Part shown: positions 27,836 through 40,897 of the stretch, in pieces
How positions within the stretch are numbered: the stretch's first letter is position 1
Layout of the letters: the number at the start of each line of letters is the position of its first letter
NCBI GenBank assembly: GCA_029256085.1
Contig: JAQSYP010000006.1
Coordinates: forward strand, 1-64,000
From: Caryophanales bacterium
GTDB lineage: Bacteria > Bacillota > Bacilli > CAJFEE01
DNA: 64,000 nucleotides
Direction of reading: 5' to 3'
Position numbers and translations under genes: made by a program
Notes under the pieces: generated by a model
Database searches by the model: none
Told to the model about the DNA's origin: nothing
The model's input: only the letters and a program-made list of their open reading frames with translations

Positions 27836-27942
27836 AACTTACCACTACTCTCTTATTAATTTTGCTAGATATATAATAAAAATCTTTATTTTGGGTATCT
27901 ATATAAATAATATAAGAAAATATAACTGAAGGAAAGATTACT

Positions 27943-28407
27943 ATGAAACCTATTACAGTTGGGGCAGAGGCACCAGACTTTACAGTAAAAGATAATAATA
28001 AACAAAATATTTGTTTGTCTTCCTTAAGAGGAAAACAAGTTCTTCTTTCATGGCATCCACTAGCCTGGACCCCAGTTTGAACAGACCAAATGAGAGCGTT
28101 GGAAACGCATTTATTCGAATTTGAAAAATTGAACACAGTTCCATTTGGATTTAGTGTAGATTCTCAACCTTGTAAGGAGGCTTGGGCAAATGCACTGCAA
28201 ATAAAGAAAATTAGCCTTCCGTGCGATTTTTGGCCACATGGAAAGGTAGCGAGTGACTATGGAGTATTTAATGAAACAAAAGGAATATCCGAGCGAGCTA
28301 ACATTATAGTTGATGAAAACGGTAAGATTAAATGGGTTAAAATATACCCATCTGACCAACTACCAGACATTAACGAAATTTTGCAGGTATTATCAAGTGT
28401 TAGCTAA
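27943..28407 (+). CDS. Peroxiredoxin with in-frame TGA at the active-site position (probable selenoprotein)
   Basis: A 154-residue thiol/selenol peroxidase of the AhpC/TSA fold, cytoplasmic. Start is ATG 27943 (MKPITVGAEAPDFTVKD) after GAAGGAA. The frame is open except for TGA at 28078-28080, codon 46. It falls exactly at the peroxidatic position of P-x3-T-x2-C: the protein reads SWHPLAWTPV, TGA, TDQMRALE. Family members carry TPVCTDQM there. The rest is intact, with Cys77 in SVDSQPCKEAW, which is conserved in this group, the Arg in SERANIIVDENG, and a normal end. A hairpin starting 15 bases after the TGA fits a bacterial SECIS. Selenocysteine is therefore the best reading. An inactivating mutation is the alternative, but no other defect is seen. 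Sel genes are not in the window. Confidence 0.85.
28078..28115 (+). promoter_or_regulatory. Candidate bacterial SECIS element
   Basis: After the TGA (28078-28080), GCGTT (28096-28100) and AACGC (28104-28108) pair around the loop GGA. An alternative lower stem AAATG (28088-28092) with CATTT (28108-28112) extends it through a bulge. The loop begins 20 bases after the TGA with G as first base. This agrees with the known rule for bacterial SECIS (loop about 16-37 bases from UGA, G in the first two loop positions). Fold and SelB binding are predictions. Confidence 0.65.
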
Positions 28408-28410
28408 AAA

Positions 28411-28443
28411 AAGCCACTTACAAATTATAGTAAGTGGCTATCT
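28411..28443. terminator. Terminator between convergent peroxiredoxin and DegV genes
   Basis: AGCCACTTAC and GTAAGTGGCT-type arms pair around a loop; T-rich sequence on plus and AAAAAA (T-run on minus) flank it, so it may act in both directions. Confidence 0.85.
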
Positions 28444-30950: not shown

Positions 30951-31706
30951 TCAGACAAATGCTAATCGCGACTGAACTAGCGTGCGTTTTAAAAATTCTC
31001 TAGTACGTTCTTGCGATGGGTTATTAAAAATATGCTCAGGATGTCCTTCTTCTGCAATGACTCCCTTATCCATAAAGACAACTCGGTCAGATACTTCTTT
31101 AGCAAATTCCATTTCGTGCGTAACGATTAACATTGTTAGTCCAGATTCCGCAAGATCTTTCATAACTTTTAGAACTTCTCCTACCATCTCTGGATCAAGA
31201 GCTGATGTTGGCTCATCGAATAGAATTACATCAGGTTCCATGCATAGTGCTCTTGCAATTGCTACTCTTTGCTTTTGTCCACCAGAAAGTTGCTTCGGTT
31301 TTGCGTTAATATACCTGTCCATTCCAACTACTCCCAAGTACTTCATCGCTACTTTCTCAGCTTCTCCTCTAGTGCGCTTTAGAACTTTTATCTGACCCAC
31401 TACGCAATTATTTAAGACATTATGATTATTAAATAAATTAAACTGTTGGAAAACCATGCCTAAATGCTTTCTGTATTCGGCTAAATCATGCTTATCATCT
31501 AAAATGTTCTCACCACGATAAATAATCTCGCCACCACTTGGTTTCTCTAGAAGGTTAATACAACGAAGAAGAGTTGATTTACCAGAACCTGATGAACCAA
31601 TGATGGAGACTACCTCACCCTTATTCACAGAGAAGTTAATATCTTTTAATACTTCATGAGCTCCAAAGGATTTGTTTAAATGTTGAATATCAACAATCTT
31701 TTCCAT
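30951..31706 (-). CDS. Polar amino acid ABC transporter ATP-binding protein (predicted lysine)
   Basis: A 251-residue ATPase of the GlnQ/ArtM type. Walker A is [16 protein letters not shown], the signature is [19 protein letters not shown], and Walker B is [17 protein letters not shown], with the switch His in [13 protein letters not shown]. It energises uptake through the membrane partner encoded 18 bases upstream. The operon begins with a lysine riboswitch, so lysine is the predicted substrate; the protein alone would only be called polar amino acid. Confidence 0.93.
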
Positions 31707-31724
31707 CTAAAACCTCTCCCGCAA

Positions 31725-32468
31725 TTATTTTTGTATAGCTTCAAATTGTGTATCGTTAGTAATCATCGTATAGTTCTCAGATCCATCTAAGCGTTTTTCA
31801 ATATATAGTAAAATTCTTGTAACAACAAAGGTCATTGTAAAATAAATCATACAAGCCACAAAGAATGTCTCAAAATATCTATAACTAATTCCTGATACAG
31901 TTTTTGTAACGAAATATAATTCTGTTACTGAGATTACATTCAGTACGGATGTGTCTTTTATATTGATAACAAATTGGTTTCCGGTTGCAGGTAATATATT
32001 TCGAATAACTTGTGGTAGTACAACATTCCACATCGTTTGCATGTGATTCATTCCTACAGCATGCGCTGCTTCAAATTGTCCCTTATCAATTGATAGTACT
32101 CCACCACGAACAATCTCAGCCATATATGCGCCAGTATTAATAGAAACAATAATAATGGCTGCAGCAAAAACATTCATATCTATACCAAATGCTAGGGCAG
32201 AACCATAAAATATCACCATTGCCTGGGCAATCATAGGTGTTCCACGGAAGAATTCAATATAGATTGATAGAATTAAATTTATTGTTTTTAAGAGTATTTT
32301 TCTCATACCGCGTTCCGGCATTGGAATTGTACGGATCATACCTGCTAAAAGGCCAATTATTGCGCCGAAAACTGTTCCAATAAGAGCAATTAACAGTGTT
32401 ACTCCAGCACCACGAAGGAACATAGGCCAGTTTTCTACTAATATTTTTATGACCCAATCAAGACTCAT
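31725..32468 (-). CDS. Polar amino acid ABC transporter permease (predicted lysine)
   Basis: A 247-residue membrane protein with about five helices. LRGAGVTLLIALIGTVFGAI opens the HisM/GlnP-type permease fold. The coupling loop to the ATPase is the EAA-like EAAHAVGMNHMQTMWNVVLP, followed by QVIRNILPATGNQFVINIKD. It probably forms a homodimer since only one permease gene is present. It lies between the binding protein and the ATPase in one operon behind the lysine riboswitch. Confidence 0.92.
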   Translation of the reverse strand: MSLDWVIKILVENWPMFLRGAGVTLLIALIGTVFGAIIGLLAGMIRTIPMPERGMRKILLKTINLILSIYIEFFRGTPMIAQAMVIFYGSALAFGIDMNVFAAAIIIVSINTGAYMAEIVRGGVLSIDKGQFEAAHAVGMNHMQTMWNVVLPQVIRNILPATGNQFVINIKDTSVLNVISVTELYFVTKTVSGISYRYFETFFVACMIYFTMTFVVTRILLYIEKRLDGSENYTMITNDTQFEAIQK

Positions 32469-32537
32469 CTTTTACCCTCCTTAACGTGTATAAAACCGAC
32501 TGCACGCTTTTACATACAGCCGGTTTCCATCATTTTA

Positions 32538-33374
32538 TTATTTTGCTGCTGGTTGATTCTTAATAGCCGTATCCATAATGCTTGTACGTTCTTCTTCACT
32601 TATACTAGCTAAAGTTTTGTTAATTTTTTCTGTTAAATCGCTACCTTTTTTAAGTCCTACAGCAATTGCCGTATCATCCTCAGATGTTTCAAATCCTTTT
32701 TCAAATTCGACCATTACGTAGTTTTCATTTGCAGCCGATGCACTTACGCCTTCAGGACGCTCTGAAACATATCCATCAATAATTCCAGACTCTAGTGCAA
32801 CTCTCATTGCTGGGAAGTTGTCCATTGCGGTTTTCTTCTCTACACCTTCGATTTGGTCGATTACTGAATAGTGGAAAGTGTTTAACTGTGCTGTAATCTT
32901 AGCACCTTTAAAATCTTGTATAGAAGTAGCCTTTTCATACTTACTACCTTTTTTTACAACCATTATTAAATTTGACTTATAGTAGTTTTCTGAAAAGTCG
33001 ATAGTTTCCTTACGCTCAGCTGTAGGTGACATACCCGCAATAATAGCGTCAATTTTCCCTGATAATAATGCCGGTACAAGTCCATCCCATTCAGTTTTAA
33101 CGATTACAAGTTCCTTACCTAAATCTGCCGCTACTTTCTTAGCGATTTCTACATCGTACCCACCAGCGTATTCTGCTGAACCTTCTATCTTAACAGCTCC
33201 GTTTGAATCATCATTTTGTGTCCAGTTAAATGGCGCGTATCCGGCTTCAAGACCTACTTTAAATGTCTCTTTTTCCGTTGACTTCTTATCCGTAGTCTTT
33301 TCTTCTCCGCACCCTACTAATAAAATCATTGCAGCTGTCATAATTACCATAAATAGTGCTAATTTGTTTCTCAT
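32538..33374 (-). CDS. Amino acid ABC transporter substrate-binding lipoprotein (predicted lysine)
   Basis: A 278-residue lipoprotein. The ATG at 33374 follows GGAGGAG and gives MRNKLALFMVIMTAAMILLV with lipobox LLVGC. The longer frame to 33593 is only the riboswitch read through. The mature part is an SBP_bac_3 fold: KVGLEAGYAPFNWTQNDD, DVEIAKKVAADLGKELVIV, WDGLVPALLSGKIDAIIAGM, TAERKETIDFSENYY. First coding gene of the three-gene lysine-type operon. Confidence 0.92.
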   Translation of the reverse strand: MRNKLALFMVIMTAAMILLVGCGEEKTTDKKSTEKETFKVGLEAGYAPFNWTQNDDSNGAVKIEGSAEYAGGYDVEIAKKVAADLGKELVIVKTEWDGLVPALLSGKIDAIIAGMSPTAERKETIDFSENYYKSNLIMVVKKGSKYEKATSIQDFKGAKITAQLNTFHYSVIDQIEGVEKKTAMDNFPAMRVALESGIIDGYVSERPEGVSASAANENYVMVEFEKGFETSEDDTAIAVGLKKGSDLTEKINKTLASISEEERTSIMDTAIKNQPAAK

Positions 33375-33418
33375 AATAATGTTTCTCCTCCTAGTGTAAA
33401 TAAAGGTAACCAAACAAA

Positions 33419-33681
33419 AAACGACCTGAGATAAACTCAGGTCGCTATAATCGTAGTAGCCCTTAAGTCCTCTCTTTTTATCCCAAATGAGATAGCACAA
33501 CTCAATAAACTGAGGGTTTATTGAGACAGTTCTGCAGCTCTTAACTACAGACCCAGCATGTAATAATGAGTATATTACAAACTTCGGCGACATTTCCTTC
33601 TCTTTAGTATCTTAGCCTCTCAAGCTCCACTAAAAACTGTTAAATATCGCGCCTCTACCTCACTGTAAAAAAGTGAGGTTG
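33419..33681 (-). promoter_or_regulatory. Lysine riboswitch (L box) with intrinsic terminator
   Basis: On the minus strand the leader carries conserved L-box pieces: GTAGAGGCGCGATATTTAAC, GGAAATGTCGCCGAAG, GCTGGGTCTG and GCTATCTCATTTGGG. TGAGGTAG and CTATCTCA can form the closing P1 stem (aptamer about 33487-33664). The terminator is CGACCTGAG/CTCAGGTCG (33422-33444) followed by six T, 45 bases before the binding-protein start. In known lysine riboswitches ligand binding favours the terminator, so high lysine should shut the transporter off. Confidence 0.92.
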
Positions 33682-34080: not shown

Positions 34081-37000
34081 TCAGTATGTTCTTGTATACA
34101 CAATTTTTGACCAATTACTATAAATCTTGGTTGTACCAACTAATCTGTAGGCCCTAATCTTATAGTAATAAGTTCTACCTCTTATTAAACGTGTATTAGT
34201 AAAATTCAATGTATTTAATCTTTTGATTAAACTGTAAGATCTGTTGGGTGCAGTTGACCTATAGATTTCATATCCGCTTGCTCCTTTAACGCCTATCCAT
34301 GTTAGTTTAATAGAAGTGCTACTACCCCTAGTCGCTTTAAATCTTTGAGGACTTGACGGAATTGGCTTAGAGCTTATAGTTGTTGAATAATTACTATAGA
34401 CTTTTGTACTTCCTAATAATCGATATGCTCTTACTTTATAATAATATAATTTATTTGTTATCAAACCTGTGTTTATGAAACTTGTTGACGTTGTATTACT
34501 AACAATTGAATACGTTCCATTGCTTGATGTTGATCGGTATACCAAGTATCCACTTGCTCCGCTTACTGGTGCCCAACTTGTCTTAATACTATTATATGCC
34601 GATGAAACGGCCCTAGCTGTTGGTGCTGACGGAATTGGTTTAGCACTTATAGCTGTTGAATAATTACTATAGACTTTTGTGCTTCCTACTAATCGATATG
34701 CTCTTACTTTATAATAATATAATTTATTTGTTGTCAATCCAGTATTCATGAAACTTGTTGACGTTGTATCACTAACAATTGAATACGTTCCACTGCTTGT
34801 TGTCGATCGGTATACCGAGTATCCACTTGCTCCGCTTACTGGCGACCAACTTGTCTTAATACTATTATATGCCGATGAAACAGCCCTAGCCGAAGTTGGT
34901 GCTGACGGAATTGGTTTAGCACATGTAGCTGTTGAATAATTACTATAGGCTTTTGTACTTCCTACTAATCGATATGCTCTTATTTTATAACAATATAATT
35001 CGTTTGTTACTAATCCGATATTTTTATATTTAGTTATGTCTAAGGTTGTATTTGTAATTAGAGTATATACTCCACCATACCAGGGGGATCTGTAAACCTC
35101 ATAGCCGTTTGCTCCTATAACTGGACTCCATTCAACAATTATACTATTATATGCTGAAGACAGAGATTTTACTGCTGCTGGTACAGTTGGTGTAGTCACC
35201 ACCCATTTTGCATACAGTGTAATTGGTTTATTTACTGCGTTATAAGTAAAACCCCAAAGTTCTTTAAATGTTAAATCTTTATACCAACCCTTAAACGTAT
35301 ATCCTGATCTTGTAGGAGCAATTGGTTCCTTTATTAGTGTATTATAATTAGTAACTATTGAAGGTATTAAACTCCCACCTTGGCTATCAAATGTAACTTT
35401 ATATGAATTAATTATCCATTTTGCATAAAGGGTTCTATTATTGGAAACAACATCTTTATTAAAATCCCATAAGAATTCCATTTGGGGGTCTTTATACCAA
35501 CCTAAGAATGTATAGCCAAGCATGATTGGTGGTTTTGGTTCGGTTATAAGTTTATTGTATTCTGTTGTTATAGGCAACACCTCAATCCAACTATTACTAT
35601 CAAACTCAACAGTATATGATTCAATATTCCATTTAGCGTATAAGGTCATGTCCGAGTAAACATAGTTTGTGCTAAAATCCCATCTGTCAGTAAATGCAAG
35701 GTCTTTATACCATCCCGCAAATTCATGCCCTCTCTTATAAGGCCGAGGCGGTTCATTACCTATGAACGAGTTAGTTGAAATCGGGGATACATAAGTCCCT
35801 CCTAAACTATCAAAAGTCACTGTCCTTGGTAATCGAAGCACATATACTGTACAGGTTGCTAGATATCCACCATCTTCTGTCTTCACAGTAATTGTTGTCT
35901 TTCCATTTTCCCCAACTGCAGTTACTTTGCCATTACTATCGACTGTAGCTATGGATTCGTTACTACTTGTCCATGTAACATTCTTGTTTGTTGCATCAAT
36001 TGGTGTAATATTAGCAGAAAGATTAATATTATCACCTACATTTAAGGTAATAGACCGTTCAGAGAGGCTAACACCACTAACATATTTTGTTACAGTCAGC
36101 GAATAATTTTCATTAGGACTATAGTTTCCATTTGGTGCAACTCTAATGTAGTAAGTCCCCGTATTAGCATAATAGTTTATATTTTCAGATTCATTGGCAG
36201 AATTTATTGAAGATTTTATCTCAAAACCACTAGAGTTATATAAGTAAAGATTATAATTTTTAGGTAGGTTTGAGAGATTAATATTTATATGGCCAACTGA
36301 ATTTATATCAAACCTATAGTAATCATTATCTTTAAGCGTATTTATATATGAACTATATGTTGTCCCTAGATTTATAGGATATGCGGAAGCCATACTATCA
36401 TTAGGTTCATACAAATCATTGGAAACCGTTACCTTTAATGCATATTTTTGTGTAACACTTGAACCTGAATATGAACCAACCAATATATAATACTTAGTTC
36501 CTGGACTCGCTAAAAAAACTATATTTTCTTGTAATTGGTAGAGGTTCTCCGAATAGTCTATTAATGATCCATCGGAGCTGATTAAATATAAATCATAATC
36601 TTTTGGTAAATTTGAAAGATTAATTATAAGTAGTGATTTTGTATCAACTGCTACCTGATAGAAATCCAGATCATTCTCTGATGAAATATATGACTCGTAG
36701 GTATTTCCAACTGTAATAGGATATGCTGATGTCATTGAATCATTAATTTCATATGGGTCAATTACTAGAGAACTATATATACCTACAGTATCAAATGATG
36801 TATTTATTGCAGATACCTCTAATGAATCTTGTCCGTATAAATCTGATGCAGCTTGAACTAATGAATCTCTAGCTTTACTAAAATCTGTAAACATTCCAAA
36901 GTAATACGTTAATGCTCTATAATATATTTTTGCAGTTTTTTCCATTCCAATAGTTTGAGCAACTAAAAATGCTGCCTTATTAGGAATTCCAGAATTAGTA

Positions 37001-38493
37001 TGAACTCCACCGAAATCTCCCTCTTCGGTATCTGGCATATTATTATAATTGTTCATATTATCTGGTTGGTTATATAGAGATGGATTCGCCAAACTTCTTA
37101 AGGCATCTCCGTTTATATTTGGAGTGTAAACCTTATCCCCTACTATCCAGTCTGCAGGATCAAAAACCCAATTGCCGCCTTTTGCTACATCATATTTGTC
37201 ATATGTTTCGATTAATACACCAAATAGATCAGCAACAGATTCATTCAATGCACCAGATTGATTAGAATAGTATAGGTCGGCCGAATTCTCAATTACAGCA
37301 TGAGTCATTTCATGTCCAACAATATCTAGGTCCCCACTTAAATGTGTAAACTGGATACCATCCCCTGACCCGTAAACCATTTCGTACCCGTTCCAGAAGG
37401 CATTATTATAATTAGTGCCAAAATTCGTATATGACCTAACTTGCATACCTCGATCATCTAAACTATTTCTATTAAACAAGTTTTTATAAAAATCTATTAC
37501 TCTACTAGCATTATAATGTGCACTCACGGCACCTTTTGTACTTTCAGATGTGAAATTATTACTTTGATTAGAAACTAGACTAGCGTTATAGATATTAATA
37601 CTATTATTCATATCAAATGTACTAATATCACTCGTCTGCAGACTTATAGAATCCTTCATAACAAATAAACTACCAGTTTGGTATAAGTTTAATTGTTTTG
37701 TGTTTCCCTGAATGTCTAAACCAGTTCCTATAACTGGTCCATCAGCCCTAATTCTATTGACCTTGTGAATAATTTTCCCCGAGTGCGCTTCTACAAAAAC
37801 ATCATAATTTCCAATATAAGGTTCTAGGAAAGAAATATTAATTTTGTATACTTCATAGTTACTATTGTCTTTATTTAATATGAACTTTTCAGCTGTAGGA
37901 GTATTCCGCAGAGAATTAAAAGAAAACTCCTTTTTAGCAATTTCTATTGCTTCGTTTTCTGATAAATTGTCATTACCCACCGTTTTAATTACTTTATTTT
38001 TATCTAGTTTTCCATTAATATTTTTCACTTTACCATTCTGGTCATAGTGAACTGTAATGTTGTTTCCGTAAACCGGGATTCCATTAATAATTTGCGAGAA
38101 TTTCACAAATGTATGCCCAATTTCATCCCTCTTGGTTTCTACTAATTTTAATTCTTTTGTGACATCACTTACTCCAAGAGAAGACTTGTTCTCCTCTATG
38201 AAAATCTTAGCAGATTTCTCATCTGGAATTAGTGGTTGTTCTCCTTGTGTTAACGGGTTAATTTTTCTTTTTCTCGGTATCTCGACGTTTGGTAAAACTT
38301 TCTCAACGTATCCGTTACTAGATTTCTTAACAGTTTCAGTATCCTTTAAAATCGGTGGTATACTATCTATGTTTGTAAAATTCTTATTATATGCTGTGGG
38401 TGCAGCGGATACAGGAATTTGAATACTAGATATTATTAAAAATAATATTATTATTAATGATTGATACTTTAGATACTTTTTAATATTAACCAA
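34081..38493 (-). CDS. Large secreted M4 (thermolysin-like) metalloprotease with PPC, Big_2, InlB-type and Fn3 domains
   Basis: A 1470-residue exported protease. A signal peptide (IIILFLIISSIQIPVSAA) is followed by FTP/PepSY propeptide (residues about 90-245, HTFVKFSQIINGIPVYG). The M4 domain (about 255-575) has the zinc site DIVGHEMTHAVIENS, the Glu ligand in GALNESVADLFG, and the catalytic His region GDFGGVHTNSGIPNKAAFL. Two PPC domains (DPYEINDSMTSAYPI, DLYEPNDSMASAYPI), a Big_2 Ig domain (NLSANITPIDATNKNVTWTS), three InlB-type repeats ending LYAKW and four Fn3 modules (SGYSVYRSTTSSGTYS) follow. Bacillolysins are usually 500-600 residues, so about 900 adhesion-type residues were added. No wall anchor motif seen. 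Confidence 0.93.
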   Translation of the reverse strand: MVNIKKYLKYQSLIIILFLIISSIQIPVSAAPTAYNKNFTNIDSIPPILKDTETVKKSSNGYVEKVLPNVEIPRKRKINPLTQGEQPLIPDEKSAKIFIEENKSSLGVSDVTKELKLVETKRDEIGHTFVKFSQIINGIPVYGNNITVHYDQNGKVKNINGKLDKNKVIKTVGNDNLSENEAIEIAKKEFSFNSLRNTPTAEKFILNKDNSNYEVYKINISFLEPYIGNYDVFVEAHSGKIIHKVNRIRADGPVIGTGLDIQGNTKQLNLYQTGSLFVMKDSISLQTSDISTFDMNNSINIYNASLVSNQSNNFTSESTKGAVSAHYNASRVIDFYKNLFNRNSLDDRGMQVRSYTNFGTNYNNAFWNGYEMVYGSGDGIQFTHLSGDLDIVGHEMTHAVIENSADLYYSNQSGALNESVADLFGVLIETYDKYDVAKGGNWVFDPADWIVGDKVYTPNINGDALRSLANPSLYNQPDNMNNYNNMPDTEEGDFGGVHTNSGIPNKAAFLVAQTIGMEKTAKIYYRALTYYFGMFTDFSKARDSLVQAASDLYGQDSLEVSAINTSFDTVGIYSSLVIDPYEINDSMTSAYPITVGNTYESYISSENDLDFYQVAVDTKSLLIINLSNLPKDYDLYLISSDGSLIDYSENLYQLQENIVFLASPGTKYYILVGSYSGSSVTQKYALKVTVSNDLYEPNDSMASAYPINLGTTYSSYINTLKDNDYYRFDINSVGHININLSNLPKNYNLYLYNSSGFEIKSSINSANESENINYYANTGTYYIRVAPNGNYSPNENYSLTVTKYVSGVSLSERSITLNVGDNINLSANITPIDATNKNVTWTSSNESIATVDSNGKVTAVGENGKTTITVKTEDGGYLATCTVYVLRLPRTVTFDSLGGTYVSPISTNSFIGNEPPRPYKRGHEFAGWYKDLAFTDRWDFSTNYVYSDMTLYAKWNIESYTVEFDSNSWIEVLPITTEYNKLITEPKPPIMLGYTFLGWYKDPQMEFLWDFNKDVVSNNRTLYAKWIINSYKVTFDSQGGSLIPSIVTNYNTLIKEPIAPTRSGYTFKGWYKDLTFKELWGFTYNAVNKPITLYAKWVVTTPTVPAAVKSLSSAYNSIIVEWSPVIGANGYEVYRSPWYGGVYTLITNTTLDITKYKNIGLVTNELYCYKIRAYRLVGSTKAYSNYSTATCAKPIPSAPTSARAVSSAYNSIKTSWSPVSGASGYSVYRSTTSSGTYSIVSDTTSTSFMNTGLTTNKLYYYKVRAYRLVGSTKVYSNYSTAISAKPIPSAPTARAVSSAYNSIKTSWAPVSGASGYLVYRSTSSNGTYSIVSNTTSTSFINTGLITNKLYYYKVRAYRLLGSTKVYSNYSTTISSKPIPSSPQRFKATRGSSTSIKLTWIGVKGASGYEIYRSTAPNRSYSLIKRLNTLNFTNTRLIRGRTYYYKIRAYRLVGTTKIYSNWSKIVYTRTY
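34390..34960. repeat. Near-identical tandem Fn3-coding repeats
   Basis: Within the protease gene, blocks of about 280 bases recur almost unchanged: CGATATGCTCTTACTTTATA occurs near 34424 and 34693, and ATACTATTATATGCCGATGA near 34576 and 34858. The high DNA identity indicates recent duplication and makes the region prone to length change by recombination. Confidence 0.8.
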
Positions 38494-38629: not shown

Positions 38630-40897
38630 TTAGTACACCTTTACCAAAGTTGCTAGGCTACTATTCTTTGCTTTATCAGTTGCAGTTACATTTAATATGG
38701 TATTCCTAGTCTGTTTTTTAATTTTAACTTTATAGGTCCCGTACTTATTTGCCACTCCTCTACCAATAACCCCTTTTTTATTTCTTACTACAATAGTTGA
38801 ATAAGCCTCAGCCTTACCTATAACATAATTACTACTTTTATAGATACGGTTAGTTTTCGGCTTTGTAGGCGCAATCTTATCAAGTACTAATAAAATGTTT
38901 GAACGACTTATATTTCCCGAAGCATCTTTAGCATGTACAGATATTTTAGTGCCTGCTTTTTTGTGGGATATTGCCATTTTGAATAATCCTTTAGCGTCTG
39001 TTTTTAAGGTGTATCTATAATTTCCGATTTGTAAAGTAATTGTTGATCTCGCCTCAGCCCTACCTGATATTACTTTTGATAAATTAGTAACAGCATTAAC
39101 AATGGGTATTGAAGGAGCAATCTTATCAAGTACTTTAACCTGTGCCTTATTACTTAAATTATTAGCGTTATCTTTTGCAGATACTAAAATATATGTTCCT
39201 TCTTTTTGTTGTGGTATTACTACCCTGAAATAACCATTTAGCCCTGTCACAGAAATATAACTTGTATTGCCAATATTAATTGTAACAATTGAACCCGGTT
39301 CAGCTTTTCCACTCAATTCCCTTGAAAGGTTTGAAATAGGGGAAATTATCGGAGTGATCGGAGCCGTACGATCAACTACATAACTATATATTGGATTTGT
39401 GTAATTTCCGGATTTGTTAGTGGCTTTAACACTGATCTGTGTATTAGGCTTTTGGATCGGAATTTCTATTTTAAATAATCCGTTAATATCCGCTGTTCCT
39501 GTATAGTTTACATTACCAATTTTAATATGTACTATTGCACCACTATCCGTTCTACCTGTAACTTGTTTAGACTTATCACTAACCTCATTAACAATAAGGA
39601 ATGATGGAGGAAACCCGTTACTGACAACAACAATTGTTGGTTCACTCCTATTTCCAGCTTTGTCTATAGCAATAACTTCCAATTTAGTTCCTGTGAAATG
39701 TATAAGGGAGCCATTACCAATATTAATATTAAAAGTACCATCGGCTTCGGTTACAGTTGACCCTAGAAGGTAGGTACCCACTTTAACCTCTATTTTCGAA
39801 TTTCTTTCAGCAGTCCCTTGAATAATATTAGATAGATTTGTGATTGCATTAACTACTGGTGAACCAGGAGGTGTTCCATCTGAAACAATTACTTCTTTAG
39901 CTATACTCATATTTTCGGAAAGATCTGTTGAAGTAACTTTAATCAACGTTCCTTCCATCTGCCTTGGTATCCCTATATTGAAATTACCATTAATATCAGA
40001 AATTCCTTTATATTCTATGTCTCCGATTTTTACAATGACATCTGTATATCTGTCGGTCTTTCCGGTAATATTTGTATCAATATCAGAGACGTTATCTACA
40101 ACAGGAGTGGTGGGTGGAGTTATGTCACTCCAATCTACTACTTTGAATTCTTCACTATAAGGAATTGATCTGTACTCTGCCTGATTTCCATTTTTGTCTT
40201 GAACACTTACACTTAGAAGCTTCCATGTTCCTAGTGGCATTGCAATTTGACTTTTTATTATATATGTTCCTTCATACATACCGGTTTCAGGATTTAAGCT
40301 AGTATTTACACTTATTCCATATTTACCATTACAATAGAATAACGATACATCTAGAACTCCTGACTGCTCGTCGGACGCATCAATCGAAAAAGTAATACTA
40401 TCTCCTTCTCCTACTCTTTCCTTATCAACTTTTACAGACTTTACATTCGGTGGGGTAATATCATACTCCTCATTCACAACTGTAAAATCCGTAGCTTCAG
40501 AGGGTTGTATCATATCTCTTTTTATGTAATAGTTGTTATACTCTTTATCTAAGATATTAATTTGATACAGCGTCCATAGACCCGGACGTTCATTACCAAC
40601 AACCAATTTGGCCTCATATTTTCCCGTTTCCCGGTTTAAAAACGCCCTTTGTGTCTTTTGTGCAATACCGTCAGGACCTAGGTAATAGATGTGAACTGAT
40701 AACACATTTTCATTTAAGTCCTCAATGTCTAAAAAAGCAGTAACTACATCGTCTACTCGGGCTTCCTTCTTATCTAGAGTGATATCCTTAAACGTAGGAC
40801 TATAACTATTTGCCAATGTCTTTAGGTTACTGACGTTACAGAAAATGAGTGTTAGTGTAATTAAAATACATGAAAATTTCTTTAGAATAGCCTCCAC
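38630..40897 (-). CDS. Secreted Ig-repeat surface protein
   Basis: A 755-residue exported protein. Signal peptide FSCILITLTLIFCNVSNL with cleavage near LANS. The start is uncertain: GTG 40897 is the only standard start before the signal peptide, with AAGGAA close to it. Residues about 35-255 hold two domains of DITLDKKEARVDDVVTAF type (Ig-like with ion-binding acidic residues). Residues 260-755 are six or more Big_6-type modules, each with DK.AP..P.V and ITGKT or ISGRAEARSTI motifs. The C-terminus (KIKKQTRNTILNVTATDKAK) closely resembles the end of the gene at 1398, so the two are paralogous. No catalytic motif and no sorting signal found. Confidence 0.83.
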   Translation of the reverse strand: MEAILKKFSCILITLTLIFCNVSNLKTLANSYSPTFKDITLDKKEARVDDVVTAFLDIEDLNENVLSVHIYYLGPDGIAQKTQRAFLNRETGKYEAKLVVGNERPGLWTLYQINILDKEYNNYYIKRDMIQPSEATDFTVVNEEYDITPPNVKSVKVDKERVGEGDSITFSIDASDEQSGVLDVSLFYCNGKYGISVNTSLNPETGMYEGTYIIKSQIAMPLGTWKLLSVSVQDKNGNQAEYRSIPYSEEFKVVDWSDITPPTTPVVDNVSDIDTNITGKTDRYTDVIVKIGDIEYKGISDINGNFNIGIPRQMEGTLIKVTSTDLSENMSIAKEVIVSDGTPPGSPVVNAITNLSNIIQGTAERNSKIEVKVGTYLLGSTVTEADGTFNINIGNGSLIHFTGTKLEVIAIDKAGNRSEPTIVVVSNGFPPSFLIVNEVSDKSKQVTGRTDSGAIVHIKIGNVNYTGTADINGLFKIEIPIQKPNTQISVKATNKSGNYTNPIYSYVVDRTAPITPIISPISNLSRELSGKAEPGSIVTINIGNTSYISVTGLNGYFRVVIPQQKEGTYILVSAKDNANNLSNKAQVKVLDKIAPSIPIVNAVTNLSKVISGRAEARSTITLQIGNYRYTLKTDAKGLFKMAISHKKAGTKISVHAKDASGNISRSNILLVLDKIAPTKPKTNRIYKSSNYVIGKAEAYSTIVVRNKKGVIGRGVANKYGTYKVKIKKQTRNTILNVTATDKAKNSSLATLVKVY

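Follow-up and report, generated by a model that had tools for sequence, protein, structure and literature searches.

The window analysed here, a DNA stretch of 64,000 nucleotides, carries the gene for an AhpE-type peroxiredoxin in which the UGA at codon 46 almost certainly specifies selenocysteine (Sec) as the peroxidatic residue; we infer Sec insertion from the sequence. Translation of positions 27943-28407 of the forward strand gives a peroxiredoxin frame whose lone internal stop is the TGA at codon 46, followed by the terminal TAA, with the active-site motif PLAWTPV-U-TDQM. The original prediction had described an intact peroxiredoxin frame with this TGA as its sole defect, as both the translation and the AhpC-TSA match confirm; the length of 155 codons that it gave stands as a count that includes the terminal stop, and the product has 154 amino acids. 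The features of the locus, all on the forward strand, are as follows:

27930-27936 (+): Shine-Dalgarno-like AGGAAAG, 6 nt 5' of the ATG, read from the sequence
27943-28407 (+): AhpE-type peroxiredoxin gene, terminal TAA included, predicted product 154 aa with UGA read as Sec
28078-28080 (+): putative Sec-UGA (codon 46), occupying the peroxidatic site of PxxxTxxU, Cys in 41 of 41 aligned relatives
28089-28115 (+): bSECIS-like stem-loop of 27 nt, apical loop 19-20 nt after the UGA
28090-28407 (+): ATG-started remnant of 105 aa lacking the active site, as a standard gene caller would give it
28412-28439 (+): terminator-like stem-loop directly 3' of the stop codon, terminator-like on the opposite strand too

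Given the AGGAAAG before the ATG and the stem-loop at 28412-28439, the peroxiredoxin gene looks like a single-gene transcript. Six in-frame TGAs flanked by open frame occur in the window, five of which are antisense to recognised ORFs. The TGA at codon 46 alone has no recognised long ORF opposite it, and is more than a chance occurrence.

With the UGA read as Sec, the product matches the Pfam AhpC-TSA family in a profile search (1.7e-30), and its closest relatives of solved structure are those of Mycobacterium tuberculosis AhpE (1.6e-29), with the UGA falling on the AhpE peroxidatic Cys. In an alignment of 42 rows (the window protein and 41 relatives), T43, C46 and R118 are invariant, residue 46 being Cys in every one of the 41 relatives, which upholds the earlier placement of the TGA at the peroxidatic residue. 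The AlphaFold2 model of the window protein, computed with the 41 relatives, has a pLDDT of 96.9, and the twelve best PDB hits for it are without exception M. tuberculosis AhpE (TM ~0.94, 36-38% identity). The gene is accordingly classed as a genuine AhpE-type peroxiredoxin with predicted peroxidase activity. Other Cys residues are found at positions 77 (26/42 rows), 94 (3/42) and 24 (2/42), and no resolving Cys is strictly conserved among the 42 rows, though Cys77 is common. The product reaches the cut-off of no NCBIfam model; orthology to PrxU was considered and rejected because the PrxU equivalog model NF040737 scores 60.1 bits against a curated cut-off of 270; the window gene is AhpE-like. 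The expectation that automated callers would split the gene was also sound, given the 105-aa remnant and the lack of a model at its cut-off.

The source organism very probably decodes Sec, since its genome contains a complete sel system together with UGA-bearing fdhA and selD genes. As had been expected, a genome search found selA, selB, selC and selD, all above curated cut-offs. The tRNA-Sec gene selC (anticodon tca) lies on contig C15 directly adjoining selB, with selA ~11 kb beyond the two, while selD lies on contig C4. The gene fdhA, which also adjoins selB, contains an in-frame UGA (codon 188) within ARI-U-HSPT, the context expected there, and selD itself contains a UGA in the canonical active site KAG-U-GCK (C4:774373-775296, L080, minus strand). 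Around selC, the segments C15:16720-18781 and ~19.8-22.8 kb (L009:8717-14817) hold selC and selB, a formate-dehydrogenase accessory-like gene and fdhA as neighbours; fdhA, with its UGA at codon 188, would likewise be cut apart by gene callers.

The UGA is followed by a hairpin (28089-28115) composed of a 6-bp lower stem (AAUGAG/UUUAUU), an A.A mismatch and a 5-bp upper stem, GCGU(U-GGA-A)ACGC, with the loop GGA (or UGGAA). The published bSECIS model requires a loop of 3-9 nt with G in the first two positions (N1-G-G-N-N2 with N1-N2 pairing), a stem of at least 4 bp, a distance of 16-37 nt from the UGA and an MFE of -7.5 or below (PMC13188914). The hairpin agrees with these loop, stem, spacing, apical-G and energy limits, its energy of -7.6 to -8.3 kcal/mol only narrowly passing the -7.5 cut-off. 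An equally stable strict hairpin arose in 34 of 20,000 synonymous-codon resamplings under host codon usage, and the background rate in long ORFs is 351 strict hairpins at 16,210 codon positions. None of 32 Cys homologues has a hairpin of this quality, and the nearest lack one altogether, by a strict scan whose sensitivity is low, as it misses many other Sec genes of the window's class, so that a negative in Cys genes is weak by itself. The stem and loop codons in the window are GCG, TTG, ACG and CAT, whereas GCA, TTA/TTG, ACT/ACA and AAT predominate at these places in the nearest homologues; GCG (9%), TTG (10%) and ACG (9%) are synonymous choices rare in the host, and CAT represents an N-to-H change. 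The putative SECIS was most likely built largely through synonymous changes and is apparently young. Together with the sel machinery, a SECIS-like hairpin at the right distance, a feature absent from the original prediction, supports the predicted translation with Sec.

The frame after the UGA appears to be under strong purifying selection. The degree of conservation is similar in codons 47-149 and codons 1-45, and comparison of the downstream frame with five close homologues gives amino acid identities of 71-79%, dN of 0.11-0.17 and, where computable, dS of 1.9-5.3. Such constraint makes readings as a pseudogene or a sequencing error very unlikely, and these were rejected on this ground and on the hairpin statistics. 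If the TGA were a mistake of sequencing or assembly, or a recent nonsense mutation, in what was a Cys codon, a single base would have changed (TGA versus TGT/TGC), and the closest homologues do have Cys; this reading is nonetheless very improbable, as it would need a correctly spaced hairpin by coincidence (34/20,000) and a change at the one residue where Sec substitutes functionally, in a Sec-decoding genome, with the downstream frame left intact and constrained. Two of the conditions named in the original prediction as refuting it were checked and do not hold: no sel gene is missing from the genome, and the frame is otherwise undisrupted. That the open 105-codon frame at 28090-28407 is the true gene, with the UGA terminating a separate peptide, is scarcely credible, since no Shine-Dalgarno-like sequence precedes 28090, every homologue is conserved from residue 1 onwards and through the UGA position, and the fragment would be without the active site.

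The close relatives found for the window gene all use Cys. All 32 relatives from named genomes (60-76% identity) have TGT or TGC at the active site, and a phylum sample of 398 genomes yielded 21 non-self matches, 19 with Cys (45-76% identity) and two, more distant, with Sec. Altogether, the other subfamily members that were read have Cys in 51 of 51 cases, and further Sec members of the subfamily were found neither among the named genome contigs nor among the 398 phylum genomes. The nearest genome of the phylum sample belongs to an order and class with only 4 genomes, which added nothing, and matches from a plasmid search were all below 60% identity. Of 30 Cys-form genomes tested, 19 have selA, among them the closely related Anaerovirgula and Alkaliphilus; a lack of Sec decoding is therefore not enough by itself to explain their Cys.

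In the class to which the window belongs, a match occurs in 18 of the 398 other genomes, and every match has one TGA; a Cys-form match at E<=1e-30 is found in none of the 398. The window gene is also absent from the one other genome of its family examined. The class matches that were read form a separate AhpE-like clade (~43% identity), in nearly all of which the motif is DWTPV-U-GAQM. Most members of this clade (L061-L079) have a stable hairpin ~26-27 nt after the UGA, and one genome (G181) has two copies. A further AhpE-like frame with a peroxidatic TGA (PLAFTGG-U-VSEM) and a strong downstream hairpin of -19.3 kcal/mol was noted in Chloroflexota (Thermoflexaceae; L056:5001-5444).

Because all close relatives found use Cys, a separate switch to selenium looks likely, and the criterion that Zhang and Gladyshev apply (PMC1794560) makes the window gene a Cys-to-Sec conversion. 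The favoured history, which we regard as quite probable, is a lineage-specific Cys-to-Sec replacement, probably after entry of the gene from Clostridia-like donors, and it is compatible with the explanation of the gene as a Sec peroxiredoxin. It is supported by the tree, which nests the window gene among nine Cys sequences with support of 97/94, and by its 200 bootstrap replicates, none of which joins the gene to the other Sec clade, by the Cys in all 51 other members, by the lack of Cys-form matches in the class and of the gene in the other family genome, by a stem made from synonymous rare codons and an N-to-H change and absent in the nearest Cys homologues, and by the occurrence of selA in Cys-form genomes. 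Against it stand the AU test, which does not reject a tree joining all Sec rows (p 0.48), and the sampling, as homologues were gathered by similarity to the window gene, and peptide patterns based on Cys served in one of the searches. The tree disfavours placing the window gene with the Sec peroxiredoxins of its class, a grouping that the AU test tolerates.

In line with the same p value, Sec may instead have been ancestral to the AhpE-like group, kept by the window gene and lost in the Cys subfamily. The AhpE-like Sec peroxiredoxins (40-45% identity) in 18 genomes of the class and in two more of the phylum sample are consistent with this history, as are a few distant Cys homologues (L050, L053 and L040) that can form hairpins in the SECIS region; we consider it rather unlikely, since it requires the window gene at the base of the Cys subfamily, contrary to the 97/94 branch, the strict SECIS is not seen in the nearest Cys relatives, and the published trend is mostly from Cys to Sec (PMC1794560). 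Returning to lineage-specific replacement, the fuller account, which we hold to be fairly likely, is an independent Cys-to-Sec switch within an otherwise Cys-only and largely Sec-capable clade, with the SECIS arising mainly via synonymous changes to rare codons within the 35 nt that follow the active site.

In the proposed mechanism, Sec-tRNA would be made via SelA and SelD and delivered by SelB, which would bind the stem-loop 19-20 nt 3' of the UGA. Positioned at the N-terminal end of helix 44-55, the selenolate would then attack a peroxide activated by Thr43 and Arg118, the presumed substrate being H2O2, peroxynitrite or an organic hydroperoxide. The resulting selenenic acid would be reduced by a low-molecular-weight thiol or a redoxin, the presumed reductants, given that the family has no strictly conserved resolving Cys.

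Elsewhere in the window, a lysine riboswitch (RF00168, 106.8 bits, 33485-33665, minus strand) lies upstream of the amino-acid ABC transporter encoded at 30951-33593. As the riboswitch covers the ORF start listed at 33593, translation of the transporter must really begin at a site further downstream. Positions 34081-38493 (minus strand) encode a secreted-type thermolysin (M4) protease of 1470 aa with Big_2 and List_Bact repeat domains, neighboured by a Big_6 repeat protein gene at 38630-40897.

Reading the UGA as Sec recovers an enzyme that automated annotation would halve, there being no NCBIfam model at its cut-off. It also provides a clean comparison offered by nature, between a single Sec enzyme and its Cys orthologues of 75% identity, with Sec-decoding neighbours, through which one can ask what Sec gives a peroxiredoxin and how a SECIS emerges within a coding sequence. 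The original prediction was right about the gene and its mechanism, and noted that Sec peroxiredoxins exist in bacteria; it overlooked that the gene is AhpE-type and that the nearest relatives all have Cys, which makes the Sec form a probable independent gain. It also overlooked that the PxxxTxxU proteins are already a catalogued selenoprotein family (PMC9312934, PMC13188914), the type example being the Eubacterium acidaminophilum Sec-peroxiredoxin/PrxU, and the 2006 survey by Zhang and Gladyshev tabulated 12 Sec peroxiredoxins and reported Cys-to-Sec conversions in many thiol-redox families (PMC1794560). No paper devoted to a Sec AhpE was found in the literature library searched. Frequent Cys-to-Sec replacement is likewise known; the window gene adds a well-supported member in an AhpE-like branch, of interest as an isolated Sec form among Cys orthologues and for its apparently young SECIS.

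Among known systems, the best solved-structure match by both sequence and fold (TM 0.94, 38% identity) is the 1-Cys peroxiredoxin AhpE of M. tuberculosis (Rv2238c), which is alike in its catalytic Thr/Cys/Arg positions. The window protein differs from it in having Sec in place of Cys, His38 (invariant among its relatives) in place of the native Phe37, and a Cys77 that is not conserved across its relatives. The PrxU/Sec-containing peroxiredoxin family shares the AhpC-TSA fold, the peroxidatic UGA, the TxxU motif and a bacterial SECIS after the UGA. The class Sec peroxiredoxins are AhpE-like with Sec at the same position, but form a distinct clade with their own hairpin ~26-27 nt after the UGA, compared with 19-20 nt in the window. 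By contrast, the Cys-form relatives in Clostridium, Anaerovirgula, Alkaliphilus and Sporomusa (L023-L054 and L084-L102; 45-76% identity, equal length) share the motif SWHPLAWTPV-C-TDQM with TGT or TGC at the active-site codon, the nearest of them being without the hairpin.
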